Below, in pieces: positions 17,071 to 57,559 of a stretch of DNA of 64,000 nt; within the stretch, counting starts at the first letter, position 1; each line of letters opens with the position of its first letter. The notes beneath the pieces were generated by a model. It was given only the letters and a program-made list of their open reading frames with translations, made no database searches and was not told the DNA's origin. Made by a program: the position numbers and the translations under genes. Source of the stretch: Lineus longissimus (lineage: Eukaryota > Nemertea > Pilidiophora > Heteronemertea > Lineidae); assembly GCF_910592395.1 (NCBI RefSeq), contig NC_088312.1, forward strand, positions 22,265,292 to 22,329,291, given 5' to 3'.

Positions 17071-20000
17071 TTACTGTATGTTTTTTGTTTGTCCTTTCGT
17101 TCCAATTCTCTTTGCTTTGGTCAGGCACAGCTGGCATACTATGACAACCGTGTCTATTAGTTCAATCACGGTCAGACAGCTCCCGCCAACCAAAAGTCCC
17201 ATGGACCCTCCGATGTCACCTGAAAAAAAATGAAAATAGGCCCTTGTTCATGAACAACATAAGGTAGGCTACGTGGTCTTGTTGAGGCAAGAACTGCGTG
17301 TGCATCCTCACTCTTTCATGTCTTTGACTTTTTACCGCATTGAAGAGATGCTAAAACCTCCGATCTCCGGGCGCCCCAATGGCTCCTTGGGTGCGGGACA
17401 TAAGCAGGAAGCTTTTTCCTACTTCTAAACGGTTTCTCTAACCTTTTCCTGATTTATCCGACAAGTCCGAGGTGGATTTCTATAAACCTGTGAACAATAC
17501 CAGGGCTTCCCAAAATAGTCATTATGATCTTTAATGACCTATTTTGGGAAGCCCAGGTATTTTTCAAAGGTGTTTTAGAAATCCGACCTTTCAGGGAAAA
17601 GTCGAACTTGTGTCGGATAAATCAGGAAAAGGTGAGAGAAACCGTTGAGAACTAGAAAAAGCCTCCTTCTCGTGCATGTGCCCAGAATCACGGCGTCAAG
17701 CGTTGCCTTGGTTAACAGCGCAGGCTGACCTTTGCTCAAAGGTACGAATAGCTATGAGTTACGCTTACTGAGTAAGGCGACAATGTCATACGCCAACTGC
17801 TGCTCCACCTTTCGGTACGACATTTCCTGGAAGTACATGTCCACCTCCGCGAAGTTGTTCCTGAAGTAGAAAGGAAGACGTAAGAGACAGTGAGTGACTT
17901 AGTGAGAAAATCGTCGCTAGGCTATTTGATTATGGCATTTAGGAATATGCAAAATCTGAAACTGAATTTGAGATTTTTCAGTAAGATACCATTACCACCA
18001 TTGGATGTAAATTTCAGCCTTGCTGCTGTGAGCACCGATATTAATCTAGATACACCCAGAGACTGTTTTTGTTGATTTTGATCATAAAGAAGTCGACTAG
18101 TAAAGCCTACGGTGTGCTGTACACCATGAAGACTACTTTTATCACGTTGGCATCTTGTTGCTCTTCCACAGAAATGTTTATTTCTTTTAACATGTTGCAC
18201 AGACAAAACAATGTACATGTACATGTACATAGACGGCGTGGGGGTTTAAATGCTGCATCCGTTTCAAAGTCATTAACCTCACTCAGCATTTGGAGGGGGG
18301 CCAAGTTGGTAACAACGGCACCTCCACATGGAGCTGAATGGCACCAAGTATCTTTAACCCATACTTGATGGTATACCAAGTATCTTTAACCCATACTTGA
18401 TGGTATACCAAGTATCTTTAACCCATACTCGATGGTATACCAAGTATCTTTAACCCATACTCGATGGTATACCAAGTATCTTTAACCCATACTCGATGGT
18501 ATACCAAGTATCTTTAACCCATACTTGATGGTATTCCAAGTATCTTTAACCCATACATGATGGTATACCAAGTATCTTTAACCCATACTCGATGGTATAC
18601 CAAGTATCTTTAACCCATACTTGATGGTATACCAAGTATCTTTAACCCATACTCGATGGTATACCAAGTATCTTTAACCCATACTTGATGGTATACCAAG
18701 TATCTTTAACCCATACATGATGGTATACCAAGTATCTTTAACCCATACTCGATGGTATACCAAGTATCTTTAACCCATACTCGATGGTATACCAAGTATC
18801 TTTAACCCATACTTGATGGTATACCAAGTATCTTTAACCCATACTTGATGGTATACCAAGTAATTTAACCCATACTTGATGGTATACCAAGTATCTTTAA
18901 CCCATACTTGATGGTATACCAAGTATCTTTAACCCATACTTGATGGTATACCAAGTATCTTTAACCCATACTCGATGGTATACCAAGTATCTTTAACCCA
19001 TACTCGATGGTATACCAAGTATCTTTAACCCATACTCGATGGTATACCAAGTATCTTTAACCCATACTCGATGGTATACCAAGTATCTTTAACCCATACT
19101 TGATGGTATACCAAGTATCTTTAACCCATACTCGATGGTATACCAAGTATCTTTAACCCATACTCGATGGTATACCAAGTATCTTTAACCCATACTTGAT
19201 GGTATACCAAGTATCTTTAACCCATACTTGATGGTATACCAAGTATCTTTAACCCATACTTGATGGTATACCAAGTATCTTTAACCCATACTTGATGGTA
19301 TACCAAGTATCTTTAACCCATACTTGATGGTATACCAAGTATCTTTAACCCATACTTGATGGTATACCAAGTATCTTTAACCCATACTTGATGGTATACC
19401 AAGTATCTTTAACCCATACTCGATGGTATACCAAGTATCTTTAACCCATACTCGATGGTATACCAAGTATCTTTAACCCATACTCGATGGTATCTTTAAC
19501 CCATACTTGATGGTATACCAAGTATCTTTAACCCATACTTGATGGTATACCAAGTATCTTTAACCCATACTTGATGGTATACCAAGTATCTTTAACCCAT
19601 ACTCGATGGTATGCCAAGTATCTTTAACCCACACTCGATGGTATACCAAGTATCTTTAACCCATACTCGATGGTATACCAAGTATCTTTAACCCATACTC
19701 GATGGTATACCAAGTATCTTTAACCCATACTTGATGGTACCTTTCTGGACTCCAGTCAAACGAGATGACTTACTTATAGAATGTTCCGGTTGGCTCCAGT
19801 TCTCCAGAATACTCATCCAGCGATGCTTTCAGGTCCTCAAACTCCGGGGCAATGACCTCTACCACTCTCTCAAGGTCACCTTTCACTTGATCGAAATACT
19901 GCCTCCAGTAAACTTTCTGAACTTTTGTAGAGATCATATACCAGCATGCATTTATGTCCAGAGCGACCTCGGTCATTTTCTCTCCATTCTTCCGCCTGGT

Positions 20001-23000
20001 GTTTGGCACAGCCCCTGGGACCCATGTTATTTCGTTGTTTGCAAGATGACTGGCTAAATATACGTAGTTTTCCCACACATCGAAGATCTCCTTCAAACGC
20101 GCGAATCTCGCATTGGCCTCCGTTAGGTACTCCCGAAGTTTATAAATCGTGTACTGAAAGCGTTCGGATCTGATTCCTTGGTCAGCTGCTTTGCCATCTT
20201 TTGCAATCTTGCTCATGTCCAAAAGTCCCTTATCCTTAAGGTTATCAACCCAGGCCTCGTATTTTGCATTTATTTTGAAGTCAGAGAACCTGAAATCCAG
20301 GTCGTTAATCATTCCGTCAGTCATTGCTTTAGAAGCTGCCTCGTGCTGAAGCATTGTTTGGTTCTTCCAATCCACATACTCCATCGCGCCTTGGAGAAAC
20401 TTCTTCATCACTTCGACTCGTTTATTGGCTAATTTCAGCGTATCCGTTATAAACGAATCCCTCTTCGCCGTAAATGTTGCCCAGTCGACCGGTTTTGTCG
20501 AATCGTGCGAGTTCAATGTGTCGAGGAGAGTTTTCACGTGGGCTTGGTTGGCTTCGGCGAGGTTGTAGTATTCATTGCAGCGTCCCTTATTCAATACATT
20601 CTCCGCTGAATCAACGATTGGCTTTTTGAAGAAGAAGCCATCGTAAGTTGGTAAGTCCGCGACGATGTCTGCTGGCGTCAAGTACGGCATGACTGGAGAA
20701 GCGGAAGTGTATCTCTCCTGGATATCCTTTAACGTGCTGACGGAGTCGCGGAGAGTGGAATTCATGTTTTTCAGCTCAAATTTCACCATCCGTACGAAGT
20801 CTCCTTCGTCCGTTGTCGGGGATCGTTTCTGGCTTGTAATGATCTTGAGTGCCTCTTCGACGTTCATGGCTAATGTCTTTGCTCCCAGCGTCACATCAGG
20901 GAAGCGTAGTGAGGCCGGACTGTAGAAGAACTCATCATATATTTGACCCATCACCCCGAAATATCGTGCCGTTTTGTTCAGGGAGTGTTTACACCTGTCA
21001 GCCATCTTCGTAAAGTTTTCCCTGTGCTTGTTGACGTCAGCAGAAAATATTTCGCCGTATACCTTTCGGGCGTTAACTGCTGTTTCTTTAAACGTTTTCA
21101 TTGGACCTAAATACTTCTGGTACAAATTTGTGTCGGTGTTGCTGCGGAGGTCACGGGCCTCCTGGTTGGCCTTCATCATCTTCTCCAGGAAATTACCGTC
21201 AAGTTTTGTGATGTCGTTTTTGGAGGTCTTCAGGAACGAAAAGCTTGTCGGGAAGTTTCCGGATTCGCATGGAGCGTCACAGACGACACACCCTGTGTTG
21301 GTGATGTTTGTGGTAGTGCTTTCGATACCTAAGAACAAAATAGAAAATCCCTGCTTACTGTTCGGGTACGGTATGAAGGAGTCTCATAGCCTACAGTGGT
21401 TAACACTGCTGGCTACCACGCAATTGGGCCCGCGGGTTCGATCCCGGGGAGAACCCAGGATTGTATTTCTGGATGTACCGGGATGACTTTCAAGGAACTA
21501 AAATACCTGGCTTTTCACAGTCATTCGAATGAGACTTAAAACCGAGTTTCTTTGGTGTCTATCTGGTGTCTATGCCAGGGGAGGTAATAGACCCCAGCAC
21601 CAAGTGAGAATCATGAGTACAGCTTGCGTGGACTCAACCTCTGGCTTCGTCGACCAATTGGTGCCTAACCATAAATCACCCCCAAGCGCCAGAGCGAACG
21701 CTGAAGAAGAAGAACACACTTACCGTTACACGATAACGAATCTGCCACTGTACAGAGCGGAGTACCTGAAAAGGCGAAGAATGTTCAGTGAAATGTGACA
21801 AGGCATGACATGCACATCTTCAAAGTCTGAAGGTAGCAAACTTTAGGCGGATCTGCCCTGCCTGTGTCTGTACTATGAGTTCATCCGCACCCAGTGAGGC
21901 GAGCCATTGATCTTTTATGATACACAAGTCGATATTTTGGTCCTTCGCAAGCAAAATAAGTAATGAGAAGGAACATATGTGGAAAAGGAGAGATAAATAT
22001 TTTCAAAAAGGTTGTACATGGATATGTTTCGCTTCTGTTCAGGACTGGTATACTCCATCTCAAATGAACGATACGAAGGGAACATAAATAGCAAATGCCA
22101 GTATTAAAAACTCATATACATGATGTTTCAAGCATGATCTCGATTGTATGAATCTAGCTGGTATATAATGCTTGTTGGTTTGATAGAAGGGTGATACCGG
22201 GTTCTTCTGTAAGTCACACAACTGAATGATTATGCAAAGGCTAAATTTCGGATGAAAGAAATATGAAAAACCTCAGTGCCTGCAAAGTGCCCTTCTTTGA
22301 ACATCAAACTTGAACTTTTAACTTCGTCGCCTCGGCCGGCCATACCCATTGACCCACCCTATCTTCAATTGGAACCCATTCCTCCTTACCGTCATCCTTC
22401 CAGCGCGAAGACTTCCTGCACCCGCACCTCTCCACAAACTTCCTGGCCTCACAATCTTCAAGACATGCCAGCTGCGAGTAACTGTCAAAATACTTTAGTT
22501 TGGTCCCATGCGTACAATTTGTTGTCTTGCTGTTGATCCGAAGTGTCTGAAATATGCACACAAAAAACTACATCATGGAAATCAGTCAATAATCAGCCGG
22601 AATTTCAGTTTTACTAGGGGGAGGGGAAGTACGGGATGGGATATAGATGTCAACATTAGGCCCCTTAATTGTTCCAATCTCCAAGCCACGCCATTGGTAT
22701 GGATTGCTTAGTGATACTTGCAGCGTGTACTGACTCTGCTAGCTATCCTCCCATTGGGAGATAGTCTTTGGCCATGACATACCTCGTCATAACTTAAGCC
22801 AACAAACGTATATGTTCCAGGGGCGATACCTTCTCCTTGCGATCCGAATACAGGAAGGTCACCAGGCTCGTAGACCACCACTTTGAAGCCCGCGGATGCG
22901 TGTGGACCCGGGGAGTATTCATAACTTTCAGTGTTTAGGAGTAAATTGAGTCCCGCTTTTGAACCTAAAATGAAGATGAAACCTATTAAACGGGAAACGA

Positions 23001-25431
23001 CGCTTAATCCGGTAACCCTGAGTTTCACTTTTTTAAATATCACCGCACTTCCCTTGGAGTCGAACAATGGACTCCTGATACATGTACTTGCATCGTGCTG
23101 TTTTGGTTTCATGCTACTAGCATTCTTTCAAATGGTCATTCTCGGAACACAGACGAGTTCTTCGTCTCGGTCACAAACACCTGTAATATGGATTCGGCTT
23201 ATAATCCAACATGGCCGCCAGAATCCAAAATGGTTCTTGAAATATACTAGTATTTACTGAGTGGTTTCGACCTTTTTTTACTGACCTGCCGTTTTCGTGT
23301 CTGGCAGTTTGTACACGCCTGTCGTTGGAGACTTCAGACCTTTGAATTTGTAGCACAGTCCGTGGTCTGTCATGATCGGATCGAAGTTTTCCCAGCTGCA
23401 ATTTTCGTTACCAAAGCGACACCTGAAATGATGTGCACAAGCACCAACCGGTGTGAATAATTTAGAAACGAATATCATACATTCCTTGCAGGTTGTGTTT
23501 CAAAGTACTTCAAAGCACCGACAAATAAGGTGATTTTTATGTCCAAATATTAAGAGACGAGTTGTTTTGAGTTGAATCTATTTACAGAAACTTAACAGAC
23601 GAGATCCATTTTTCTGAAATATTCATGGCAAGCCAACCATTAGAAGTCTGACCCCGTAAAGCTGTGCCTATGATTTCAGCTGCTGAGAGTGCCAGAAAGG
23701 CTGATTTGAAGACATGTCCATACCTGGCGATCATGTCTTGTGGCAGATGCCCGAGATGGCTGAGAAGATACTCCCACGTTTTATTCAAGAATGCTTCATA
23801 ATTTGCTTTGCTTTTCGTACAAAGTCCGACCGGGGGTTTGGGCGTGATGGGTGTTGTGGCGTTTGGGTCAGACTTTTGGACGCTGACATGGGGAGTCAAT
23901 TCCTTGTTGAAGAATTGTTCTAAGTAGGAGTTCGACTTATCCTTAACTGCAGCACTAAATCTGAAATTAGTGAGACAGTGGGCTGTTAACGCTAGCGTTT
24001 GTCCAATGCCGATTGGGCAAGTGGTTCCGGGTTGTTCCCCTATTGAAAAGTCATTGTCTCTCTGGCTCATGTCTATTGCGTAAAAACACTGAAATATGGG
24101 GACCGACCAAACACCTTACATCATTCGACAACAATTTCGGCTGGAAAACTTAATCATGCATTTTGTCCCCGGATATTCAACTTCACTAACGCGACCATTC
24201 AACCTCGGTCCCATGAGTGGTCGTGTTACCGGGGTTCCACTGTATTATCAAAAATATATGAGGCGAGTTTAGATATTTTTGTTATCATATGGCAAGCGTT
24301 AAATATATCGGTACCTTCAATAGCAAGTTTATCTTTTGAAATAGCCATTAATATGAAGTTAAACGTAAGAGCATCAAACCTACTTGAATTGGTTCTGGTT
24401 GCAAATGGCTATGACGGGGAACTTCAGTGTATCATTGAATACAATATCAACGGAGACAAGGATTGGTTCCTTTGAGTAGAAGCGCACTCGTTCCTGGATC
24501 TGGTAGACGAGGTAAACACTGGCGACGAGAATGACCACTGCCCATGCAAGTCTGATGTGGGAAGAAAGGTTAAGGTTACTTTCGTCGGAAATTCGCTTGC
24601 AAGTGAAAACGTAGCAGCCGCAGAAAAGCTAGTGCGATGCAATGGAAATAGACTGCCGCTCGTCAGCGTAAAAAGAACCAGTCAGTCGTATCCTTCCCCC
24701 GTGCACACGCTCGCCCTCGTGGGTGCATGGAGCTGGGCTATATCACCCAAAATCTCGGCTCCCGCCTCGGTTTTAGCCTTCATTAAGCTCCACCCTCGCG
24801 GTGTTTAATGAGACAACCAATACCTCCACTTTGGTTTCAAATGCTTGTTACTATACCGCTAACTATGAGATCTTTAAAAAATGGCCCTTGTCGGGAATTT
24901 TCAGGCCGGAACGTGTCCTGGAGGCCAGTGTATTAAGGTATGGACGTCGTAGGAATGCAGGACCCCATACAATAGCTGTGTATTGTCAACGAATGTGGTT
25001 AATGGTTTGTTTAGGGTTAACTACAGAATCTTCAACAAAGGAACTCGGCGACTCTATTCACTTTAACAAAAGGACCGGACTTAGATTCCCAGAGACTTGT
25101 ATTTCTTTTACACTTGTATGTCGCGCGACATCGAGCCATCAAGTCCCCGAGCGCCAACGCGAACGCCCAGCCATTGTCCGAGCTCCTGATCACGATGTCG
25201 AGCAATGGGACAGGCTTTCCCCTTTGCGGGGTATTTGTGAGAACTCACTTATTCGATTCACAAAGGTGCATGCGCCCACGCCTACCTTCTGAAAAGGCCT
25301 GCCTGGTGCATGGTGACAAAGCGCACCCCATGAAAGGTGGTATCCTGGGTGAAGCCATGCCAGATATTGCTAGCTGATACATCGGGAGTTTCCGCACTCT
25401 CCTCATATGTCGAATCCTTGGCTTTGACCAT
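17071..25431 (-). CDS. DEG/ENaC-family ion channel A with giant extracellular insertion
   Basis: Ten exons (5' to 3'): 25286-25431, 24384-24551, 23724-23960, 23286-23422, 22783-22964, 22390-22546, 21724-21765, 19774-21328, 17769-17860 and 17071-17219. They join in phase to 954 residues. Family marks in order are TTFHG (His-Gly gate), TM1 (about 50-70), FPVIAICNQNQF, TDHGLCYKF, AGFKVVVYEPGD, then CEARKFVERCGCR, PLC and CDAPC. The pre-TM2 segment is EQQLAYDIVALLSDIGG, followed by TM2 with the GGS filter and LTVIELID. Relatives are about 500-600 residues long. The excess lies between CDAPC (near 378) and NNFAEVDMYF (near 875). It is expected to be a trimeric, amiloride-type cation channel of the plasma membrane. 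The gating stimulus is unknown. ATG 25431 sits in a strong Kozak context (GTCGCCATGG) 12 bases after an acceptor, but paralog C suggests an upstream coding exon is possible. Confidence 0.92.
17428..17648. mobile_element. Long imperfect hairpin element in channel A intron 9
   Basis: The left arm runs from AAACGGTTTCTC through TGATTTATCCGACAAG, GGATTTCTA, AATACCAGGGCTTCCCAAAA to TAGTCATTA. The right arm is its reverse complement and ends GAGAAACCGTT. Total length is about 220 bp. The orthologous element is in gene B but carries extra sequence in the loop. It is a MITE-like non-coding element that predates the A/B duplication. Confidence 0.8.
18340..19740. repeat. 32-bp minisatellite, about 43 copies, in channel A intron 8
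   Basis: The unit is GGTATACCAAGTATCTTTAA then CCCATACTTGAT. Copies differ chiefly at one position, CTTGAT or CTCGAT, with rare CATGAT. One unit has lost four bases near 18.86 kb and one is cut to about half near 19.49 kb. Each unit contains the palindrome GGTATACC. The array lies just downstream (in gene sense) of the giant exon's splice donor. The same site in gene B has a single unit. Confidence 0.97.
19774..21328 (-). other. Giant exon 8 of channel A (extracellular insertion)
   Basis: The 1,555-base exon has clean splice sites (acceptor TTGTTCTTAG, donor TATAA|GTAAGT). It starts with the conserved TGCVVCDAPC knuckle and then encodes about 480 residues with no match I know. The composition is rich in Lys, Glu, Asp, Ala and Leu, with few Pro or Gly and only three Cys, which suggests a mostly helical domain. 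It ends GELEPTGTFYK, leading directly into the pre-TM2 segment. In known channel structures this junction is at the knuckle near the top of the extracellular domain. Confidence 0.9.
21386..21456 (+). repeat. tRNA-like repeat in channel A intron 7
   Basis: AGCCTACAGTGGTTAACACT (A-box-like) is followed by CGCGGGTTCGATCCCGGGG (T-arm). An almost identical copy sits at the same intron position in gene B. It is probably a tRNA-derived SINE that predates the duplication. Confidence 0.5.
25139..25256. mobile_element. Decayed copy of the CGCCAACGCGAACGCC hairpin family (in A intron 1)
   Basis: AGCGCCAACGCGAACGCC, a central TGATCACGATGTCGAGCAAT and a closing GCGGGGTATTTGTGAGAACT match the arms of the fuller copies at 27.1 and 53.2 kb. 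The left terminus is eroded. The equivalent copy is present in gene B. Confidence 0.65.
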
Positions 25432-26149: not shown

Positions 26150-28500
26150 ATATAAAGTGATACTTGTATTATTTTTCTGATTGTGTGTATCAATTTATTC
26201 AGGGTTGCTAGATCGGTAAGATTTTGGTGAGCTGTGAGCTACGAATCGTGGAGTAGCAGATCCAATATGGCGGCCTGTATTTGCTGTCAGGTTACGACAT
26301 ACGTATACGCAACTGTGCAGGAGTGTTTGTTCATAATAAAAGCGTGGAGGTACTATTAAAAGTTTTAAAAACTGAAAAAATTCTGTCAAAAGACAGAAAA
26401 AAGTTATATCTTTAGTCTTCATGTGAAAATTACAAAATTAAAGTGAAGGATATTAGTTAGAATGCTATATGAAGTTCGCATCGAAAAATCAGTGAGTTAC
26501 GTCCGAGTACACATTTATTAAAAACAGCCTGAGTTTTGTCTTGGCAACGAATTCAGTGCAACCTAGGCAACATTGATATTTTGGTAAAAAAATAACAGAA
26601 GATTGCTCATGAGGCATCCATGCTTTTATGGTGTATTATCTGTTTTAAATACACCCAGCATGGAACAAAATACACAGGTTTTCAATAATGGTTCGTGACA
26701 ATATGTTGTTTACCTTCTTCTGTTCAGCTGTCAGATGATCAATGTTCAGAATGTGGATTTTCATAATTAATGCATTTCCATCACATGAACAATTTATATA
26801 GCAGAATGATTATCTGATAACATTCATACAACACCCATCATCAAGGCTGGAAAAATCATTGGTTGATTTCTCTAAGCTTAAGATGCTCGCAAATCGAATC
26901 GAAGCTCACTCATGTGTACAGGACCTGAAACCTTTAAAAATGAGTTACAGGGGGACTGGCAGGAGGAGCGTACTAGGCCTACACGATTCGTGTTCCGTGC
27001 CCATGGTGTAAATCTCGGAAAAAAGTACACCTTTCCTCAAACTGCTTGTGCTCATTGGATGTAAGCTACCGGTACTGGGATGGCGCACGGGAATACGGGA
27101 CCTGCAACTTTCATTAGGGAGTCTTCGCAAACCACAGGAAACGCCCACGCGAACGCCTATCCCATTATTCGACCTCTTGATTACGATGTAGAACAATCGG
27201 ATAGGCGTTCGCTTTGGCGTTTCGGGAGATTTGCGAAAACTCCCTCAAGGCGTACCGCGGCTCGCAGTGCCCGAAAAAAGCATTTTCAGGAACAAGAAAC
27301 TACCGGCACGGGAACTCATTCAAATTGCCCCCACCATTTTCCTGGCTTACACGATGCACACACATTCACGCGAGTGGTTTGCTGATGAGTGCGTTGTTGC
27401 TTAACATTTCTGTTCGAGTAAAACACTATGTCATTTTGTCTTGTCAACAAATTTAATGGGATTTTATGCAACCAATTTTAAACCTTAGCCAAATCGAGTA
27501 AATCTCCCTTTCCATTGTATTTGATCTATAAGAGCAAAAACTGCGCTTGTGCCGGCGGGACAACCACTTAGCAAAAAATACTAATGGCGAGACTTGTAGG
27601 TTTAAATCAAAAAGGGAGATTTTCTCGAAAGGGAGCGAGTACGATGTGTCTCATCAGGCAGTAAAGCACCTAAAACGCGCTTCCCGGATGTTTGCATGAG
27701 TATGTAAGCGGTCGTAGAGTTATCTTTTCATGTCTCAGGCGATAGTACAGAGCAAGAAACTACAAGTTTGCTTCTATTGGGTTTTCCGTTAAGGAATCAG
27801 CGGGTCAGTTCTTACTACAAAAACTGATGAAGTAACGCACAGGCTACCACGAGTATATAGGTTGGTATACTCTCGGTTGGCGGTCAATAGGTCTCTGGTC
27901 GAATCCATTAGTTTGATAGACGTATCGCTAATACTAAGTATGAAGGAATGAAATTACATTTATATACGGCAAAATCCAAACTATTTGCTCCAATGCCATT
28001 CGAAAACAGCGTCTGAATAGTTGGGTCTTTAGCCATTGTTAACCCATGCCTGAAAATGGCAACAGTCTTAGCATTTTGAATGTCAACACCAAAGTTCATT
28101 CAAAAGTCTTGCCGCTAGGAAAAGGAAGCCCCTACCGTACATCTCCAGGCGATACCGGGGGATCCTCAGGAAACATTTGTCCTCGGACGTCAGGGATCGC
28201 CCAGAGTCGTAGGACGGGAGGAGCCCGAACATGTACGTAGGGGCAAGTCCGTTTATTGCTTTGAAGAGCTGTAGCACTGCCTTGAATTCGATACGCCCAG
28301 TAATTCGACCAAACTCCGTCACTTACCTCCTCCCAGGAATCCATCTTCATGTTTAGGTCGGTCAACTCATTGCCAACGCTTATGTGACTCATCTGTCACT
28401 CACGTGATCCAGGCTGTGGAGGACTGCCTTAGTTACCGGACAATCATGTCGGGGGACACGTGATGGGAAAGTCAACAAGAGGAGACCAATGACAAAAGTA
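26150..28500. repeat. Duplicated flank, copy 1 (pairs with parts of 49.1-55.3 kb)
   Basis: Collinear blocks recur 5' of channel C. One block contains CCAATATGGCGGCC, another TGAGGCATCCATGCTTTTAT, and another GGGGGACTGGCAGGAGGAGC. A last block, including GCCGCTAGGAAAAGGAAGCC, runs to the end of the segment. No conserved reading frame is seen across the pair, so I treat it as non-coding repeat or flank. No gene is recognised from 25.43 to 29.48 kb. Confidence 0.75.
27114..27247. mobile_element. Hairpin element, CGCCAACGCGAACGCC family
   Basis: The left end TTAGGGAGTCTTCGCAAACC and the arm ACGCCCACGCGAACGCCTAT meet a central GACCTCTTGATTACGATGTA. The right arm is the reverse complement and ends TTTGCGAAAACTCCCTC. 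It is about 134 bp, non-coding, MITE-like. Confidence 0.8.
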
Positions 28501-29475: not shown

Positions 29476-32400
29476 TTAAAACCGTTGTTCTACAACGTTA
29501 ATTGTTTGTCCTTTCGGTCCAATTTTCTTTCTCTTGGCCAGGCACAGCTGGCATACTATGATAACCGTGTCTATTAGTTCCATCACGGTCAGACAACTCC
29601 CGCCAACCAAAAGTCCCATGGACCCTCCGATGTCACCTGAAAAAAAAATAGGCCCTTGTTCATGAACAACGTAAGGTAGGCTACGTGGTCTTGTTGAGGC
29701 TAGAACTGCGTGTGCATCCTCACTCTTTCATGTCTTTGACTTTTACCGCATTGAAGAGATGCTAAAACCTCCGATCTCCGGGCGCCCCAATGGCTCCTTG
29801 GGTGCGGGACATAAGCAGGAGGCTTTTTCCTGATTTATCCGACAAAAGTGTGACGACTTTTCCCCGAAAGGTCGGATTTCTAGAAAACCTGTGAAAATAC
29901 CAGGGCGTCCAAAATAGAGCATAAAAGATCAAAGCCTTATGTCGAATGAGGTAAGTGAGGTGTGAACAGACCACTTCAAGTGATCTCAGTGAGTTACCGA
30001 ATTACATGTAGTATGTTCACATTTAGGGCAGGCACTCTGAGTATTTGGGTTACCCCAACCAAAAACTCATTAGTTTTTGCGGCTAATCAACATAGGCCTT
30101 AAATTTTTAATGTCCTATTTTGGGAAGCCCTGGTATTTTTCAAAGGTTTTTTAGAAATCCGACCTTTCAGAGAAAAGTCGGACTTGTGTCGGATAAATCA
30201 AGCAAATAGTTAGAGAAACCGTTAAGAAGTTGGAAAAAGTCTCCCACTCGTGTATGTGCCCAGAATCACGGCGTCAAGCGTTGCCTTGGTTTACAGGGCA
30301 GGCTGACCTTTGCTCAAAGGTACGAATAGCTAAGAGTTACGCTTACTGAGTAAGGCGACAATGTCATACGCCAACTGCTGCTCCACCTTTCGGTAAGACA
30401 TTTCCTGGAAATATATGTCCACCTCCGCGAAGTTGTTCCTGAAGTAGAAAGGAAGACGTAAGAGACAGTGACTTAGTGAGAAAATCGTCGCTAGGCTATT
30501 TGATTATGGCATTTAGGAATATGCAAAATCTGAAACTGAATTTGAGATTTTTCTGTAAGATACCATTACCACCATTAGATGTTAATTTCAGCCTTGCTGC
30601 TGTGAGCACCGATATTAATCTAGATACACCCAGAGACTGTTTTTGTTGATTTTGATCATAAAGAAGTCGACTAGTAAAGCCTACGGTGTGCTGTACGCCA
30701 TGAAGACTACTTTTATCACGTTGGCATCTTGTTGCTCTTCCATAGAAATGTTTATTTCTTTTAACATGTTGCACAGACAAAACAATGTACATGTACATGT
30801 ACATTGACGGCGTGGGCCTTTAAATGCTGCATCCGTTTCAAAGTCATTAACCTCACTCAGCATTTGGAGGGGGGCCAAGTTGGTAACAACGGCACCTCCA
30901 CATGAAGCTGAATGGTACCAAGTATCTTTAACCCATACTTGATGGTACCTTTGACTCCAGTCAAACGAGATGACTTACTTATAGAATGTTCCGGTTGGCT
31001 CCAGTTCTCCAGAATACTCATCCAGCAATGCTTTCAGCTCCTCAAACTGCGGGGCAATGACCTCTACCACTCTCTGAAGGTCACTTTTCACTTGTTCGAA
31101 ATACTGGCTCCAGTAAACTTTTCTCTGATTATTAGTATCTTGCAGAAATAGAGAGCAAGCAAATTTGTCCAGGGCGACCGTGGCCATTTTGTCTCCTTTC
31201 TTCCACGTGGGCTGTTGCGGACCCCCTTGGACCCATACTATGAGGATGGTCGTAAGGTGACTGACTGAATATACGTAGTTTTTCCACACATCGAAGATCT
31301 CCTTCAAACGCGAGAATCTCGCATTGGCCTCCGTTAGGTACTCCCGAAGTTTATAAATCGTGTACTGAAAGCGTTCGGATTCGATTCCTTGGTCAGCTGC
31401 TTTGGCATCTTTTGCAATCTTACTCATGTCCAAAAGTCCCTTATCCTTAAGGTTATCAACCCAGGCCTCGTATTTTGCATTTATTTTGAAGTCAGAGAAC
31501 CTGAAATCCAGGTCGTTAATCATTCCGTCAGTCATTGCTTTAGAAGCTGCCTCGTGCTGAAGCATTGTTTGGTTCTTCCAATCCACATACTCCATCGCGC
31601 CTTGGAGAAACTTCTTCATCACTTCGACTCGTTTATTGGCTAATTTCAGCGTATCCGTTATAAACGAATCCCTCTTCGCCGTAAATGTTGCCCAGTCGAC
31701 CGGTTTTGTCGAATCGTGCGAGTTCAATGTGTCGAGGAGAGTTTTCAGGTGGGCTTGGTTGGCTTCGGCGAGGTTGTAGTATTCATTGCAGCGTCCCTTA
31801 TTCAATACATTTTCCGCTGAATCAACGATTGGCCTTTTGAAGAAGAAGCCATCGTAAGTTGGTAAGGCCGCGACGATGTCTGCTGGCGTCAAGTACGGCA
31901 TGACTGGAGAAGCGGAAGTGTATCTCTCTTGGATATCCTTTAACGTGCTGACGGAGTCGCGGAGAGTGGAATTCATGTTTTTCAGCTCAAATTTCACCAT
32001 CCGTACGAAGTCTCCTTCGTCCGTTGTCGGGGGTCGCTTCTGGCTTGTAATGATCTTGAGTGCCTCTTCGACGTTCATGGCTAATGTCTTTGCTCCCAGC
32101 GTCACATCAGGGAAGCGTAGTGAGGCCGGACTGTAGAAGAACTCATCATAGATTTGACCCATCACCCCGAAATATCGTGCCGTTTTGTTCAGGGAGTGTT
32201 TACACCTGTCAGCCACCTTCGTAAAGTTTTCCCTGTGCTTGTTGACGTCAGCAGAAAATATTTCGCCGTATACCTTGCGGGCGTTAACTGCTGTTTCTTT
32301 AAAAGTTTTCATTGGACCTAAATACTTCTGGTACAAATTTGTGTCGGTGTTGCTGCGGAGGTCACGGGCCTCCTGGTTGGCCTTCATCATCTTCTCCAGG

Positions 32401-35400
32401 AAATGACCGTCAAGTTTTGTGATGTCGTTTTTGGAGGTCTTCAGGAACGAAAAGCTTGTCGGGAAGTTGACGGATTCGCATGGAGCGTCACAGACGACAC
32501 ACCCTGTGTTGGTGATGTTTGTGGTAGTGCTTTCGATACCTAAGAACAAGATAGAAAATCCCTGCTTACTGTTCGGGTACGGTATGAAGGAGTCTCATAG
32601 CCTACAGTGGTTAACACTGCTGGCTACCACGCAATTGGGCCCGCGGGTTCGATCCCGGGGAGAACCCAGGATTGTACTTCTGGATGTACCGGGATGACTT
32701 TCAAGGAACTAAAATACCTGGCTTTTCACAGTCATTCGAATGAGACTTAAAACCGAGTTTCTTTGGTGTCTATCTGATGTCTATGCCAGGGGAGGTAATA
32801 GACCCCAGCGCCAAGTGAGAATCATGAGTATAGCTTGCGTGGACTCAACCTCTGGCTTCGTCGACCAATTGGTGCCTAACCATAAATCACCCCCAAGCGC
32901 CAGAGCGAACGCTCAAGAAGAAGAACACACTTACCGTTACACGATAACGAATCTGCCACTGTACAGAGCGGAGTACCTGAAAAGGCGAAGAATGTTCAGT
33001 GAAATGTGACAAGGCATGACATGCACATCTTCAAAGTCTGAAGTTCGCAAACTTGGAGGCGGATCTGCCCTGCCTGTGTCTGTACTATGAGTTCATCCGC
33101 ACCCAGTGAGGCGAACCATTGATCTTTTTTGATACACAAGTCGATATTTTGGTCCTTCGCAAGCAAAATAAGTAATGAGAAGGAACATATGTGGAAAAGG
33201 AGAGATAAATATTTTCAAAAAGGTTGTACATGGATATGTTTCGCTTCTGTTCAGGACTGGTATACTCCATCTCAAATGAACGATTCGAAGGGGACATAAA
33301 TGGCAAATGCCAGTATTAAAAACTCATATAGGTGATGTTTCAAGCATGATCTCGATTGTATGAATCCAGCTGGTATACAATGCTTGTTAGTTTGATAGAA
33401 GGGTGATACCGGGTTCTTCTGTAAGTCACACAACTGCAATGATTATGCAAAGGCTAAATTTCGGATGAAAGAAATATGAAAAACCTGAGTGCCTGCAAAG
33501 TGCCCTTCTTTGAATATCAAACTTGAACTTTTAACTTCGTCGCCTCGGCCGGCCATACCCATTGACCCACCCTATCTTCAATTGGAACCCATTCCTCCTT
33601 ACCGTCATCCTTCCAGCGCGAAGACTTCCTGCACCCGCACCTCTCCACAAACTTCCTGGCCTCACAATCTTCAAGACATGCCAGCTGCGAGTAACTGTCA
33701 AAATACTTTAGTTTGGTCCCATGCGTACAATTTGTTGTCTTGCTGTTGATCCGAAGTGTCTGAAATATGCACACAAAAAACTACATCATGGAAATCAGTC
33801 AATAATCAGCCGGAATTTCAACTTTACTAGGGGGAGGGGAAGTACGGGATGGGATATAGATGTCAACATCAGGCCCCTTAATTGTTCCAATCTCCAAGCC
33901 TCGCCATTGGTATGGATTGCTTAGTGATACTTCCAGCGTGTACTGACTCTGCTAGCTGTCCTCCCATTGGGAGATTGTCTTTGGCCATGACATACCTCGT
34001 CATAACTTAAGCCAACAAACGTATATGTTCCAGGGGCGATGCCTTCTCCTTGCGATTCGAATACAGGAAGGTCACCAGGCTCGTAGACCACCACTTTGAA
34101 GCCCGCGGATGCGTGTGGACCCGGGGAGTATTCATAACTTTCAGTGTTTAGGAGTAAATTGAGTCCCGCTTTTGAACCTAAAATGAAGATGAAACCTATT
34201 AAACGGGAAACGACGCTTAATCCGGTAACCCTGAGTTTCACTTTTTTAAATATCACCGCACTTCCCTTGGAGTCGAACAATGGACTCCTGATAAATGTAC
34301 TTGCATCGTGCTGTGTTGGTTTCATGCTACTAGCGTTCTTTAAAATGGTCATTCTAGGAACACAGACGAGTTCTTCGTCTCGGTCACAAACACCTGAAAT
34401 ATGGTTTGGCTTATAATCCAACATGGCCGCCAGAATCCAAAATGGTTTCAAAGTAAGAGTTTTTCTTGAAATTTACATGTATACTGGTATTTACTGAGTG
34501 GTTTCGACCTTTTTTACTGACCTGCCGCTTTCGTGTCTGGCAGTTTGTACACGCCTGTCGTTGGACACTTCAGACCTTTGAATTTGTAGCACAGTCCGTG
34601 GTCTGTCATGATCGGATCGAAGTTTTCCCAGCTGCAATTTTCGTTACCAAAGCGACACCTGAAATGATGTGCACGAGCACCAACCGGTGTGAATAATTTA
34701 GAAACGAATATCATACATTCCTTGCAGGTTGTGTTTCAAAGTACTTCAAAGCACCGACAAATAAGGTGATTTTTATGTCCAAATATTAAGAGACGAGTTG
34801 TTTTGATTTGAATCTATTTACAGAAACGCTTTTCTTGGATTTCAAGTATTAACAGACGAGATACATTTTTCTGAAATATTCATGGCAAGCCAACCATTAG
34901 AAGTCTGACCCCGTAAAGCTGTGCCTAGGATTTCAGCTGCTGAGAGTGCCAGAAAGGCTGATTTGAAGACATGTCCATACCTGGCGATCATGTCTTGTGG
35001 CAGATGCCCCAGATGGCTGAGAAGATACTCCCACGTTTTATTCAAGAATGCTTCATAATTTGCTTTGCTCTTCGTACAAAGTCCGACCGGGGGTTTGGGC
35101 GTGATGGGTGTTGTGGCGTTTGGGTCAGACTTTTGGACGCTGACTGGGGGAGTCAATTCGTTGTTGAAGAATTGTGCTAAGTAGGAGTTCGACTTATCCT
35201 TAACTGCAGCACTAAATCTGAAATAAGTGAGACAGCGGGCTGGTTTATCGGACATGAATACAACCAAGTATTCATAAGTCTTTATGAATACTTGATACAA
35301 CTGACAAAAAAGTATGTGCGAAATGATTTCATTAACAGAAACTAACTTAATGGCCACGTGTGGTCATAAATGACGGCATTGAAGTGTATCGTTTAATGAA

Positions 35401-36989
35401 AGTTTCCGCTTCAAGGCCTTATTAATCGAGTGGTAGGTCATATTATATTGCGAACTGTAAATTAAATTCACTGCTGGAGATAATGTTTAATTGAGCGAAC
35501 GCTGGCGTTTGTCCAATGCCGATTGGGCAAGTGGTTCCGGGTGGTTCCCCTATTGAAAAGTCATTGTCTCTCTGGCTCATGTCTATTGCGTGAAAACACT
35601 GAAATATGGGGACCGACCAAACACCTTACATCATTCGACAAGCATACAATCTTAAAAATAAAGCTTTTTGAGCCTCTGAAAGAATTTTAGGTTTTTTTAG
35701 CCAACAGCAAAATGCGTGCCCTAGAAGTTTTTCAGAGAATTGACACACCTCTGGACTGAGATTTGATCGTGTCCATGGAAAACCTATACGAGTTGATATT
35801 TGTGTAAGCTGAAAATCCCAAATGGCTTTTCAGAAGCTAAAAAACGACTTTATTTTTTAGAGAGTCTCAAATAAATGACTAAGGATCGTGAATGATTCGG
35901 ATGATTGGTTCGCCTTACTCGCCTCATTTTGTCAAACTGGTCTCATCCAAAACATGGTGAAGACATTTTAGTCATCCTCAAAAAGTCTTGTTTCAATTGA
36001 GTGTGGGTATTATCAAAAATATATGAGGCGAGGTTATATATTTTCGGTATCATATGGCAAGCGTTAAATATATCGGTACCTTCAACAGCAAGTTTATCGT
36101 TTGAAATAGCCATTGATGTTAAGTTAAACAAAAGAGCATCAAACCTACTTGAATTGGTTTTGGTTGCAAATGGCTATGACGGGGAACCTCAGTGTATCAT
36201 TGAATACAATATCAACAGCGACAAGGATTGGTTCCTTTGAGTAGAAGCGCACTCGTTCCTGGATCTGGTAGACGAGGTAGACACTGGCGGCGAGGATGAC
36301 CACTGCCCATGCAAGTCTGGTGTGGGAAGAAAGGTTAAGGTTACTTTCGTCGGAAATTCGCTGGCAAGTAATCGCGAAGCAGCCGCAGAAAAGCTAGTGC
36401 GATGCAATGGAAATGGTCTGCTTCTCGTCAGCGTAAAAGAACCATGTCAGTCGTATCCTTCTCCAACGCAAACGCTCTCCCTCGCGGGAGCATGGAGCTG
36501 GGCTATATCACCCAAAATCTCGGCTCCCGCCTCGGCGGTTTTAGCCTTTATCTAGACAACCAATACCTCCACTTTGGTTTCAAATGCTTGTTACTACTGG
36601 TAACTAGATCTTCACAAAAATTGTCCTTGTCGGGAATTTTCAGGCCGCAACGTGTCCTGGAGGCCGGTATGTCGCGCGACATCAAGCCATCAAGTCCCCG
36701 AAGCGCCAACGCGAACACCTATAATATCCCATTGTCCGAGCTCCTGATCACGATGTCGAGCAATGGGACAGGCTTTCCCCTTTGCGGGGGATTTGCGAGA
36801 ACTCACTTATTCGGTTCACAAAGGTGCATGCGCCCACGCCTACCTTCTGAAAAGGCCTGCCTGGTGCATGGTGACAAAGCGCACCCCATGAAAGGTGGTA
36901 TCCTGGGTGAAGCCATGCCAGATATTGCTAGCTGATACATCGGGAGTTTCCGCACTCTCCTCATATTTCGGATCCTTGGTTTCGACCAA
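29476..36989 (-). CDS. DEG/ENaC-family ion channel B (recent duplicate of A)
   Basis: Exons: 36844-36989, 36149-36316, 34981-35217, 34522-34658, 33996-34177, 33603-33759, 32935-32976, 30979-32539, 30347-30438 and 29476-29636. All splice sites are intact and the sum is a whole frame (961 codons including stop). The domain order is as in A, and the insertion is two residues longer. TM2 reads GLLVGGSCLTVMELID, with a tail ending NVVEQRF. The position equivalent to A's ATG (36987-36989) is TTG, with the surrounding GTCGCC..GGTC kept and no other upstream in-frame ATG in the exon. Either translation begins in an unseen upstream exon, or B has lost its start and is an early pseudogene. Everything else looks functional. 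Confidence 0.88.
29826..30230. mobile_element. Hairpin element in channel B intron 9 with loop insertion
   Basis: Arms match the A-copy hairpin (CCTGATTTATCCGACAA, GGTCGGATTTCTA, ATACCAGGGC and their reverse complements). The loop, however, contains roughly 190 additional bases (about 29928-30110) that are absent from A. Either B gained an insertion or A lost it. Confidence 0.75.
30914..30949. repeat. Single 32-bp unit at the site of the A-copy satellite
   Basis: GGTACCAAGTATCTTTAACC followed by CATACTTGATGGTACC occurs once, bounded by the same unique flanks as the array in gene A (left AGCTGAATG, right TTTGACTCCAGTCAAACGAG after a small indel). It is the one-copy allele of the expanded minisatellite. 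Confidence 0.95.
30979..32539 (-). other. Giant exon 8 of channel B
   Basis: The 1,561-base exon is nearly identical to that of A over most of its length. The exception is a block at about 31120-31285, where the protein differs at many positions (for example KNYVYSVSHL against ENYVYLASHL, then almost unrelated residues for about 35 positions). Similarity resumes at KVYW.QYF.QVK. The reading frame and the GTFYK exit to the next exon are kept. Confidence 0.9.
32597..32667 (+). repeat. tRNA-like repeat in channel B intron 7
   Basis: Nearly identical to the tRNA-like sequence in channel A intron 7, at the matching intron position. Confidence 0.5.
36687..36813. mobile_element. Decayed CGCCAACGCGAACGCC hairpin copy (in B intron 1)
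   Basis: Allelic to the copy at 25.14 kb. GAAGCGCCAACGCGAAC and GGGGGATTTGCGAGAACTC are retained, with a four-base insertion in the left arm (ACACCTATAATATCCC). Confidence 0.65.
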
Positions 36990-38098
36990 GGCGACAGATT
37001 TCTGCAGAAAAATTGTTCATTGTATATACATGTACATGTATACCTGTAAATTGTTAGTGTTTTTAATCGGAACAAATGAAATCTTTGTGGGGAAGTCGAG
37101 TTACATGTCCGTGCGAGTGGCAATCACTCGTTTGTGGAACATCGAAGGTCACTGCATCCGGAACTCAGGCCAAATTAAATTGTTCAACCAAATTCAACCA
37201 TTCAATGGGAACTCAAGTTATGAATGTGGTCACCTGAGGGATATGGATTCATACTGGTGATAAACCATTCAATTGGAACTTGTGTATCAGTCATTGGCTG
37301 TGGACTTATTAAATATAATTTCTGATTCTTTTTTGTCCCCCTTGTATGATTGGAGACTGAAAATGAAATTTAAAAAATGAAAAAAATGTTGTTGTTTTTT
37401 TTAATTTCCCCCCTCCCAGGTTTTGAGGTTGAAGAAAAATATTTAAAAATTTTTTTTTGTTCCCCACACACACACATTTGAGATAAGAAATGCACTAAAT
37501 GCATGTTTATTGTCACTTCTTATGGGTATGTCCCAAAGTATGTAACTGAGAGACCACAAAGTACCGGCAACAGTCCAAGCAAGGCCATTTTATAATCCAA
37601 CTTATTAAAAAAGTGTGGCCTGGAGGCGCTAATTATTACATGTATTATTTTGTTGACGCAAATTTACCATCGCACCAAATCAATTTACCTAATGCAAACA
37701 TGGTCACAACTCAATGAACGACGTCTGGTTGCTTACTCAAACTCCCAAAACACCCTGTGAATTATTTATGGTAATTCATTTTATGATTTTCATGAATAAT
37801 CAGTCAGGCGAAGATCCTCGATTGGCCGCTCGAACCTTTTCACCGTATTTCACTCAAACCGCAGGCCATAGCTCCTCGTCCTTTGTACTCTGCATCTCAT
37901 TGTATAGGTTTCAATTGGTCTATTGTCTTTAAACAAATTAAATTCACATTGCTACTATCTCATCAAAAGGTTATCAGGGCATACTTTGATAACATTGACC
38001 ACACACGCTCACGCACACCCGCACGCACAAGACAGCCTTCATTGGTGACGACAGCCCTAAATCGGCAAGGAATGGGCAATGGGGTGGGGAGGAAAATA

Positions 38099-38215
38099 GG
38101 GAGGTTTCGCAAAGCCCCAGAAACGTCAAGGTAACACCTATCCCGTTGTTCGGCATCCTTAAAATGAGGTCGAACAATGAGATAGGCGTTGGGCTTTCGA
38201 GGACTTTGCCAAAAC
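38099..38215. mobile_element. Hairpin element, CGCCAACGCGAACGCC family
   Basis: GGGAGGTTTCGCAAAGCCCC opens the copy. The centre ATCCTTAAAATGAGGTCGAA is followed by the inverted arm CAATGAGATAGGCGTT. The right end GGACTTTGCCAAAAC is eroded. Confidence 0.7.
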
Positions 38216-40933: not shown

Positions 40934-41259
40934 TATCTTTCCTACATTATCAATCCTGAACAAAGACAGTTATTTACAAAACTTAGAATTGGGTCCCACC
41001 AGCTTGCAGTATAGAGTGTGGGAGATATGAAGACATTACACATACAAGGAAACAGAGGAAATGTCTTTCATGTAAAGGGGATATAGTGGAAGACGAGTTC
41101 CACTTTCTTATTGTTTGTGACAGGCACTCCGCTATACCCGGGAAGCAATGTTTCAATATACAGGTACAATCGATGCTGACTTTGTATATCTCAGAAATGG
41201 GTAAATTTAAATATCTTTTAACATGTACATGTATTTCTAGTCCTGCCTTTACTATATGA
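40934..41259 (+). pseudogene. 3' remnant of a non-LTR retrotransposon reverse-transcriptase ORF
   Basis: One frame reads YLSYIINPEQRQLFTKLRIG then SHQLAV and stops at 41012. From 41017 another frame continues with CGRYEDITHTRKQRKCLSC and then KGDIVEDEFHFLIVCDRHS, ending at a stop at 41257-41259. The Leu-Arg-x-x-(S)-H-x-L, GRY, CxxC and EDEFHF..xC pattern is the usual C-terminal zinc-knuckle tail of LINE ORF2 proteins in invertebrates. The stop and frameshift between the halves, and the absence of the catalytic core, show it is dead. Confidence 0.75.
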
Positions 41260-41652
41260 GTAAAAAAATATAAGTAAAATGTTAAGTGTCCACAAACTTG
41301 TGTTTTCGAACGTTTTGAAATCGGACCTCGATGCAGATTGCAACTGTGTACAATGCTCATGCACATTCCTCATTCAAAGAGACCTACGGCGAGAGTGGAA
41401 GTTTGCTGTGCGGATTCAGTGAACGCGGTAAGTTATGTACATGTATGTGGAAGTGTCTTTTGGGATTGCGGTGAATAACCTCCAGGGCACGTCTTGGACA
41501 CAACGCAAGAACAAGTGCAATGTATGATTCATTATACGCAATGTCAGCAGTTGTCTTGATATCAGTAACGGCCTCATGGAATTGAATTGAATTTTCGTGC
41601 AAATCGCACCAGCAAACAGAAATCAGCCGCATGTTTGCAGACGCGGATCTAA

Positions 41653-44600
41653 TCACATCCAGCCGTCCGGTGCTTTTTGTTGACGTGGTGCCTTCTGAAC
41701 ATTCGTCTTCGCTCTTCGTGCCCAAAATACTGCTATGCTGAAGGCGATGGTGTCAATAAGCTCACATACCGTCAAGCAGCTCCCGCCGATCAGAAGGCCC
41801 ATCGAGCCACCAATGTCGCCTGTAAACAGTGCAAGATGATTAGATATTCTCAAGGAGGATTGTCTCGAGATGATGCCGGGCCAGCACCACCGCGTCAGGT
41901 TGTTTCCAAACAAACAACAGCAAGATACTGTGACGTTTCAATACAGGAGAAAACACAGAAGAGCGTGTCAGCCTGTTGTTGGCGCAACGATTTGGCAGTT
42001 GCACAGGTATCTTCATGGGATTTCGCATGACGAGCCATTCGGCCTAGTACTTTTTCTCGGGCGGTGAAAATGAACCTTCTCATTTTCTGTTTAAAAGTCT
42101 GGCGCAAATCAGTTAGCTAGAGTCGGCCAGATGAACATGTGGCAATAGGATTCTATTCAGAAACACGCGTTTGACTTGATGATGCGTCAATTTCATTGAT
42201 ACCGACTGAGGTGCGATAAGGGCATTGTATTGCTCCTACGATATTTTTTTTTAAATCTTGGATCAATTCCAAAAGGCATACTTACTGAGTAAGGCGGTGA
42301 CATCGTAGGCTATGGTCTGCTTCACGGTTTGGTACGACATCTCCTTGAAAAACACATCTACGGCAACGAAGTTTTCCCTAAAGAAACGAAAAGAGATTCA
42401 CCGTTGTTAGGCAAGGAAAGGTCTTCATGTCTGTGTGCCAAATTTGTAGTTCAGTCATGATGGTAATAGGGAGGTTTGGCAATCGCTACAACAAAGTATA
42501 TACATGTACGAAGATCGGAGGTGTAATAACAATAATAATGCGAGTTCTTATAAAGCGCTTTAATATTATTAGCACTGTATCATCTATTGTCCCAAAGCGC
42601 TTTTCAATCGCAAACATTATTAACCAGCCTATCCAGAGACCTATCAAGAGAACAAAGGGGACATTTCAGGCCTGTTGAAGGTTACAAAGTGGCACCGGGC
42701 GGGTATCGAACCCGGGACCTCCCGATCTCTCCAAGCGTCATCTAGTTAGGTGCCTCATACTCGCTGGTGTCTTTAATGTCTTTAATGTCTGGAAGCATAA
42801 TAATACCGTCTGGCATAGAAATAAATCACCTTATTCTCGTTCTCGGGTCAATATCGGAAAGTCTCCATGATCTCAGACGCTCAACTGTTAAATTCAATCT
42901 GCAACTCAACCACTTACTTATAGAAAATTCCATCTCCGTCCAAATTCCCAATGTACTGAAGCAGCAGCGACTTTAGCTTCTCAAACCTTGACAGAATGAG
43001 ATCCTGGACTTTCTTGATAGCCTCCTTCTGCATCGGAAAGTACCTGAACCACCACCCTTTGTTGGACGTCCCAATGTAGGAACACGAACTCAATTCCAAT
43101 ATGCCAAGCAATTGGCGTAACTGCGATTCAGGTACACCTCCTTCTATATTGCTCCTGGCCGTATTTGATGCTTCTGATACCTTTTTCTCATACAATTTAA
43201 AGTTGGTTTCAAGACGAGAGAATCGTTGAAAGGACTCGATGAGGTGCTGGTGCATTTTGACGACAATTGAACTGAACCGCTTCTCGAGTGGACCACTATC
43301 CGCCTTATGTGCGACTTTGGCGTAAATGCTGACATTGAGAAACCCTGACTCGCTCAGACTCGCCACCCAATTGTCGTAGGCTGAATTCGTCACAAAGTTG
43401 TAGAAGTGACCAAACATATCACTCAACATCGTATAACCTATGGTTTCGGCCTCGCCTATGGTCTTCAGCAATGTCGCGCTAATCCACTCGGATACAAGAG
43501 ACGGCTTCTGGAACCTCTCAATCAGGTTCCTCCGTATATAACTCAGCTTTGACATGTCATCGAGAAATCTCTGCTTCCCCGCATTGACAAACTTTTCATT
43601 GGACATCTCCAGCGCGAGGCTTTTCAAAAAGTTGACGTTTTTGGTTGCAATTTCGTAATATTCATCGGTAAGTTTATTCGTTCCGGTATCCAACACAACA
43701 TTCTTTAATGGCTTGGTCATGTAAATGCCACCAAAACCTACAGTATTGTTGTAATCGGTGATATTGGTGTCTGGGACAACGGGAGTATAGTTTCCGTACT
43801 TGTAGAGGATTTCCTCCAGGGCAACCATGGAGTCTTTCAGAGCGATCCGCGCACTCACGATTTCAAACTCGACCGACTTCTTGAAATTAGCATCGACCGT
43901 GGGACGCAAAGCCTCTTCAACGTTTCTAATCAAGGACCGAGTGCCACTAGTCACATCGGGGAAGTTCCCCGCAGCTGGACCATAGAAATATTGGTTGTAA
44001 AAATCGAACATTTTGCTGAAATAGGTGGCTGTTTCGTTCAAAGATATGTGGCATCTTGATGTCTCCCGCCGAAATTTCACATTGTTATTTTCGACGGAAT
44101 CGGCAAACGCCGAGCCATAAACCTTGGCTGTATCCCGGGTCACTGCTTTGAATTCCTTGATCGCGTCCAAGTACTCCTTGTATCGGAGTTCGTCAGTGTT
44201 GATGCGATAGTCACGGGCCTTTGCGTTATCGTTCAATATCTTTTTCAGTACTTCTTGGTCCAGTTGGTTGATGTCATTTTCCGCGGTCTTCAGAAAAGAG
44301 AAGCTTGTGTCATAGTCCATTGTCTGGCATCGAGGCAGGCATGATTGACGACATGATTGCGTCTTCGAGTCCTCTAGCTTGTCAGTCGATGCAGTTTGGT
44401 TTGTAGTAAAGTTTGTTGCTGAAAAACAATTGAACAACCTGGTTATCGATTGAGCAGGTCAAAGTAGGGCCCTACGTTGTATACTTTTATTATTACTTCA
44501 ACAACGGCTTCCAGCAGTACCATGATCACTCCAAACAGGATCCTTATTTTTAAAAATTTAAATTGCCATTAATACTTCACTATAACGCATGTCACCATAG

Positions 44601-57535: not shown

Positions 57536-57559
57536 AATGAATTGCCACACAATAATGCA

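Follow-up and report, generated by a model that had tools for sequence, protein, structure and literature searches.

How does a DEG/ENaC channel come to carry several hundred additional residues at its knuckle, and what might they do there? The question is raised by a stretch of 64,000 nucleotides from the ribbon worm Lineus longissimus (contig C5, positions 22265292-22329291 of the assembly; hereafter the window), whose minus strand holds three tandem DEG/ENaC genes, transcribed in the order C, B, A and sharing ten coding exons each. In all three a single exon of ~1.5 kb, exon 8, lies between the Cys motif of the knuckle and the segment preceding the second transmembrane helix (TM2), as a first-pass annotation of the window had described. 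We tentatively suggest that these genes represent a nemertean DEG/ENaC subfamily in which an all-helical extracellular domain of ~480 residues takes the place of the knuckle helix alpha-6 or is an outgrowth of it.

Three tandem genes with a common exon structure

The gene models are listed below in window coordinates.

17071-25431, minus strand: gene A, 954 residues, assembled by splice sites and phases; identical to database protein P0001 (LOC135488615)
25431-25286, 24551-24384, 23960-23724, 23422-23286, 22964-22783, 22546-22390, 21765-21724, 21328-19774, 17860-17769, 17219-17071, minus strand: exons of gene A
19774-21328, minus strand: exon 8 of gene A, 1,555 base pairs (bp), phase 1 in and phase 2 out; the knuckle insert is protein residues 390-872 (483 residues)
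29476-37001, minus strand: gene B, ten coding exons assembled by splice sites and phases
37001-36844, 36316-36149, 35217-34981, 34658-34522, 34177-33996, 33759-33603, 32976-32935, 32539-30979, 30438-30347, 29636-29476, minus strand: exons of gene B
30979-32539, minus strand: exon 8 of gene B, 1,561 bp, 485-residue insert
41653-48741, minus strand: gene C, ten exons, equal to residues 23-980 of database protein P0002 (LOC135487906, 980 residues)
48741-48575, 48143-47976, 47548-47303, 46255-46122, 45773-45592, 45253-45085, 44786-44736, 44418-42918, 42377-42286, 41819-41653, minus strand: exons of gene C
42918-44418, minus strand: exon 8 of gene C, 1,501 bp, 455-residue insert

Splice sites are of the GT/AG type and phases are equal exon for exon in A, B and C; in each gene exon 8 follows a phase-1 intron and closes at a phase-2 donor, in agreement with the shared borders and phases reported earlier. 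The first transmembrane helix (TM1) is encoded by exon 2. Exon 8 begins with the end of the thumb and its CxxxC motif, continues through F-S-F-L into the insert and terminates inside F-Y-K, after which exon 9 supplies the pre-TM2 strand and exon 10 supplies TM2. The gene A model is identical to the predicted L. longissimus protein P0001 over 954/954 residues, insert included, and the gene C model likewise matches the predicted protein P0002 exactly through its insert.

The 5′ ends of the genes differ in the following respects.

28327-28392, minus strand: candidate first exon lying upstream of gene A, with the sequence MSHISVGNELTDLNMKMDSWEE and a GTAAGT donor; one residue different from the start of P0002 and absent from the public gene A model
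55163-55228, minus strand: first coding exon of gene C, MSHISVGNELTDLTMKMDSWEE, coding for residues 1-22 of P0002

The candidate exon is a twin of the first exon of gene C, and the public gene A model begins one exon further downstream. Gene B has TTG at the position of gene A's ATG (exon 36844-37001) with its reading frames otherwise intact; a start codon and a first exon like those of A and C were looked for in gene B and not found. The intron after exon 8 of gene A contains a 32-bp tandem array (18343-19739, 44 copies at 96% match), and no array of this type is among the tandem repeats listed for gene B. Further arrays, with 31-bp and 180-bp units, lie at 15813-16105 and 57546-58094.

Site and size of the insert

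Between F-S-F-L and F-Y-x-N-F there are 483 residues in A, 485 in B and 455 in C. Measured from CxxxC to the x-x-G-G that precedes TM2, the distance is 529, 531 and 501 residues, respectively, and 501-537 across six insert-bearing proteins, as against 96-124 in eight single-frame DEG/ENaC genes of the same worm (eight of the nine single-frame matches from a genome Pfam search) and 75 in a hemichordate relative, P0006 of Ptychodera flava. A gap of ~500 residues therefore stands out, as the first-pass annotation had claimed in contrasting about 490 residues with about 40 in ordinary members, although the latter value is low for many of them.

The channel on either side of the insert is of the usual kind. 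Scores for Pfam PF00858 (ASC) are 267 bits for A and 280.8 for C, and 278.4, 277.6 and 287.1 for three further L. longissimus database proteins, P0003, P0004 and P0005 (cut-off 23.6). On gene A the profile matches in two stretches (expectation value, E, 4.6e-79), the first of which ends at residue 430, ~40 residues inside the insert; the bulk of the insert is not covered by the profile. The best relatives of gene A in the PDB are ASIC channels (6l6p, ASIC2, 3.4e-48); the 6l6p alignment covers residues 27-406 and 873-930, running 17 residues into the insert and resuming after it, and TM1 and TM2 align with those of ASIC1/2. CxxxC and the thumb cysteines are aligned, and the selectivity filter G-x-S is GGS or GAS in A, B, C and P0003-P0005; in further copies read, it is GAT in the copy at C5:22.78 Mb and GGS or GAS in the rest. 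The insert itself aligns between A/B and the diverged C, as had been noted (150/455 aligned residues identical between A and C), and because it is conserved in this way its frame is not open by chance.

Character of the inserted domain

The prediction of a large, mostly helical domain at the knuckle is borne out by gene models equal to the public predictions, by periodicity and by the lack of a clear membrane span. Helical amphipathic periodicity is above that of shuffled sequences in 14/14 inserts (z 3.1-6.7), one of which, C17a, is without its first part. A segment with a 19-residue Kyte-Doolittle mean of 1.6 or more is usually taken as membrane-spanning; the highest mean in the 14 inserts is 1.61 (the C4 copy), the others giving 0.84-1.51, so that none has a clear membrane span. 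Pro and Gly together make up 3.5-7.1% of the insert. In six inserts of 455-491 residues there are 2-4 Cys and, in 6/6, 4-7 N-glycosylation sequons, at a density no higher than in the rest of the ectodomain.

In the fold check proposed by the first-pass annotation, AlphaFold predicts the insert to be almost wholly helical, the longest helices reaching 84 residues, but at low confidence (mean predicted local distance difference test score 43.5 for full-length A and 55.5 for exon 8 alone). Searches with these low-confidence models by Foldseek and VIA-align returned only generic helical matches, which neither place the insert among known helical folds such as four-helix bundles, ClyA-like proteins or chemoreceptor ligand domains nor set it apart from them. 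This lack of a clear match does not mean that the fold would be new, and no fold is claimed here. Known domains were considered and rejected, as Pfam gave only weak matches below cut-off (among them BAR_3 0.0069 for B, ACBP 0.09 for A, HSBP1 0.002 for P0003). Neither exon 8 of A nor a profile of A, B and C matched any PDB sequence at E up to 1, and a profile of P0003-P0005 gave six weak matches to long helices or small proteins (best 0.04). No EGF match was found in exon 8 of A, B or C (E up to 1) or in whole P0001-P0005 (0.1). Comparison of insert halves for an internal repeat gave nothing in 5/6 cases; the halves of the P0003 insert match each other (z 3.4, 0/200 shuffles), a possible internal repeat.

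A family of insert-bearing genes

The three genes of the window are present as first annotated, but the family is far wider: L. longissimus has at least 16 genes that bear the insert, spread over five or more contigs. Profile and protein searches added P0003, P0004 and P0005, whose inserts occupy an identical position and are 488, 491 and 484 residues long, respectively. Four of the five database members (P0001-P0004) have 954-980 residues and P0005 has 1,015. A genome Pfam search gave at least 104 exon-level matches, and 22 stretches of 5-10 kb were read around part of them. The insert-bearing loci outside the window are the following.

C5 22.78 Mb, C5 0.89 Mb, C4 3.74 Mb and C11 3.63 Mb: insert frames
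C5 3.55 Mb: gene of P0003
C17 near 9.81 Mb: insert-bearing pair, two genes
C10 near 18.86 Mb (loci L015-L018, C10:18849001-18889000): insert-bearing array, four genes on one strand

The count comprises these loci and A, B, C, P0004 and P0005, the last two entered as database proteins. Thirteen inserts were read end to end, among them those at C11:3.63 and C5:0.89, which were assembled from two and three segments, respectively, whose joints are approximate. The first part of one C17 gene is missing, and its C17 partner and the fourth copy on C10 were covered in pieces only. The four C10 copies are closely alike and form an insert group of their own with the knuckle motif CTHPC. At L023, L024, L025 and L028 channel pieces are present with no long insert frame in the stretches read, these genes being partly modelled. 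Protein searches detected no insert-bearing protein outside L. longissimus, but they are insensitive (one missed P0002-P0005 at E up to 10), and absence of the insert from other animals is therefore not established.

Origin of the insert

Most inserts open with a motif of the approximate form P-x-F-S-Y-L-x-x-S-x-F-D-I-x-K followed by A-R-D-x-x-x-x-T-D, of which the C10 copies lack the A-R-D part. A phase-2 donor, with GT two bases past the last full codon, is found at 13/13 insert ends examined (A, B, C, L012, L009, L026, L015, L016, L017, L027, L014 and both C17 genes). In a phylogeny built on 192 channel columns from 25 sequences, insert-bearing genes part from ordinary ones with a Shimodaira-Hasegawa-like approximate likelihood ratio test (SH-aLRT) value of 93.2 and a bootstrap of 94, and the same split is recovered at 90.1 and 77 after removal of seven fast single-exon genes. 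The sample consists of 14 insert-bearing sequences, with two of the four C10 copies, and 11 taken as ordinary; it excludes L019, L024, L025 and L028, and includes as ordinary L023, a partial gene model with no long insert frame. Support for the deep branches that connect the insert-bearing groups is weak (bootstrap 47 and 71 with all 25 sequences).

Because the tree separates the two classes, one origin of the insert is likely, and a single gain followed by fast divergence is the most likely history on present sequences. Pairwise scores between groups are low: Smith-Waterman comparison of the inserts of A, B and C with those of P0003-P0005 gave z below 2 in 9/9 pairs. Profile comparison of the same two groups gave 1.1% at first and, with six sequences in the second group, 91.1% (E 1e-6, 179 columns). 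The P0003 group and the C5:22.78 Mb copy match at 98.6% over 471 columns, and the remaining 8/10 between-group pairs reach 26% or less. For the C10 and C4:3.74 Mb copies, a common origin would accordingly be supported by position, intron phase and the tree rather than by profile scores. Separate gains at one and the same point are possible for these copies, though less likely.

Divergence of the insert

At every distance the insert changes about twice as fast as the channel. Its identity, compared with that of the N-terminal part of the channel, is 33 versus 53% between A and C, 22-24 versus 44-49% within P0003-P0005, and 11-16 versus 30-33% between these groups. The closest pair, A and B, shows a local departure.

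19850-20149, minus strand: divergent island between A and B, in exon 8, C-terminal part of the insert; two 150-bp bins with 14.7-19.2% substitutions

Elsewhere in the aligned block 19700-23990, the divergence between A and B is 0-6.8% in the other 27/29 bins, mostly 1-3%, introns and exons alike. A second block, beyond the 32-bp array, differs by 2-5% in 5/6 bins and by 13.4% in bin 17505-17654 of the last intron. For codons 771-865, nonsynonymous (dN) and synonymous (dS) divergence are 0.265 and 0.163, as against 0.011 and 0.030 for codons 390-770 of the insert, and the patch exceeds the remainder of the gene in its nonsynonymous share (Fisher p = 0.012). The high dS indicates that the patch is older than its surroundings.

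Possible working of the domain

What can be read from the sequence is the gene structure, the insert site, the helical periodicity, the family of at least 16 genes and the fast divergence of the insert. The subunits would form an ordinary trimer, with two membrane helices each and a G-x-S filter, so that three insert domains would stand on top of it. The insert may be a recognition module for outside ligands, environmental or secreted, that differs between paralogues, and ligand binding might shift alpha-6 against the neighbouring subunit's finger and against the palm strand beta-10, and so change the gate. Given the reported properties of related channels, a domain at alpha-6 is in a good position both for sensing and for influencing the gate: beta-10 spans thumb to knuckle along the trimer axis, and ENaC gating is altered by changes in the knuckle (as described in PMC9052164); in FaNaC1 alpha-6 of the adjacent subunit contributes to the lining of the peptide pocket (as described in PMC11026163); and the knuckle residue Asn511 of alpha-ENaC is reported as important for the shear response, with N-glycans as candidate matrix tethers (PMC7958617).

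A ligand-recognition head is ranked first, and a matrix tether second, because a fast-evolving repertoire of paralogues, partly in arrays, resembles recognition domains; the tandem arrays of insert-bearing genes in the window and on C10 count in the same direction. We infer both binding and coupling; that the insert is an extracellular recognition domain undergoing diversification, with the knuckle as its link to gating, is in our view nearly as probable as its contrary. Several observations weigh against it. The AlphaFold models are weak and the fold matches generic, and alpha-6 appears rather static during FaNaC1 gating in the account of PMC11026163. The fast divergence of the insert would also fit relaxed constraint. 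In the A/B patch the excess of dN over dS is not significant (Fisher p = 0.28), and dS is also raised in the exons after the insert (0.132, with dN 0.068). Given the high dS of the patch, exchange with a third copy or an allele explains it as well as selection does, and conversion from an older copy is indicated as much as selection.

The domain might instead act as a rigid tether. As a long N-glycosylated spacer made of helices, it would join each subunit to mucus, cuticle or matrix, and shear or stretch would then pull on the knuckle and open the channel. The 4-7 sequons in each of 6/6 inserts, the long helices of both low-confidence AlphaFold models and an insert length held at 455-491 in six inserts, though distant pairs are 11-24% identical, are all consistent with this proposal, as is the shear role of alpha-ENaC Asn511 with its candidate glycan tethers (PMC7958617). 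No Pfam adhesion or matrix domain scores above cut-off, however, the sequons are not denser than elsewhere in the ectodomain, and a multigene repertoire with a divergent island would not be needed for a mere spacer. A tether is rather unlikely, though second only to the recognition head.

Less probable still is an assembly or inhibitory cap that binds nothing foreign and either fixes the composition of heteromers or blocks proteases and ions. Many paralogues, some of them tandem, could make heteromers, and alpha-6 contacts the neighbouring subunit in FaNaC1 (as described in PMC11026163). Against such a role, the insert evolves fast. Subunit contacts are usually slow-evolving and ordinary DEG/ENaC trimers assemble without an insert, both of which count against a cap. 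A gene-model artefact, with exon 8 unjoined to the channel mRNA or its long frame open by chance, is very improbable: the public LOC records are presumably predictions, to judge by their naming, but frames of 1.5 kb are open in A, B and C, with A and C 33% identical, splice sites are canonical with matching phases, public predictions for A and C agree exactly, and genes on other contigs have the same layout.

Comparison with known channels

ASIC1 and ASIC2 (6l6p, 9e4a) share with these genes the two-transmembrane plan, the HG motif before TM1, the thumb Cys pattern, the pre-TM2 strand, D-I-G-G-x-x-G-L and an aligned G-x-S filter, but have ~20 residues at the insert point as read from the alignment. 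H73 and K211 are named as proton determinants of ASIC in PMC10507113. In gene A, the only gene aligned for this purpose, the columns of ASIC1 His73 and Lys211 hold Ile79 and Thr228; because both proton residues are absent from gene A, proton gating in the manner of ASIC is unlikely. FaNaC1 (8on7) and the FMRFamide-gated channel 7yvb are likewise lophotrochozoan DEG/ENaC channels, with a ligand pocket that touches alpha-6. They match gene A more weakly (8e-17 and 1.7e-21, respectively), and a short alpha-6 segment is described for them in place of the 480-residue domain here.

The EGAS channels of C. elegans are also DEG/ENaC channels with an added domain, described as 'EGF plus ASC domain' in PMC10424705. 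Their EGF modules are Cys-rich, whereas the Lineus insert has 2-4 Cys and no EGF match. The EGF modules are, moreover, situated outside the knuckle. P0006 of P. flava resembles the present genes in the addition of large domains to a DEG/ENaC ectodomain; there, however, the added domains are known folds between TM1 and the palm, in the finger region, and the knuckle is ordinary. This protein of 1307 residues has four LDLa, three F5/8C-type and one PAN match in the finger region, a large domain gain.

No DEG/ENaC subfamily with a knuckle insert was found in the literature searched, in which part of the queries could not match the slash spelling of the family name; within that scope, the earlier assertion that no described member is built this way stands. 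Among surveys that include nemerteans, the main text of PMC9949801 contains neither 'insertion' nor 'knuckle', and that of PMC9234716 does not contain 'knuckle'; the latter states that sequences above 1,000 residues and badly aligning segments were removed. Such a length filter (PMC9234716) could lose genes of this kind from family surveys, though four of the five database members fall just below 1,000 residues.

Significance

The DEG/ENaC family includes channels gated by protons, peptides, proteases or force, whose outer domains pass such signals to the pore. A natural family with a ~480-residue module at the knuckle, beside ordinary genes in one genome, would offer a direct test of what the knuckle can transmit. 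It is conceivable, if on balance doubtful, that ribbon worms have turned DEG/ENaC channels into a repertoire of receptors, in which a knuckle-born helical recognition head of no known fold was spread and varied by tandem duplication and by segment exchange of the kind suggested by the A/B island. A ligand-binding role, if true, would make the domain a new type of head for a ligand-gated channel; a tethering role would make it a visible example of the tether that the force-from-filament model requires.

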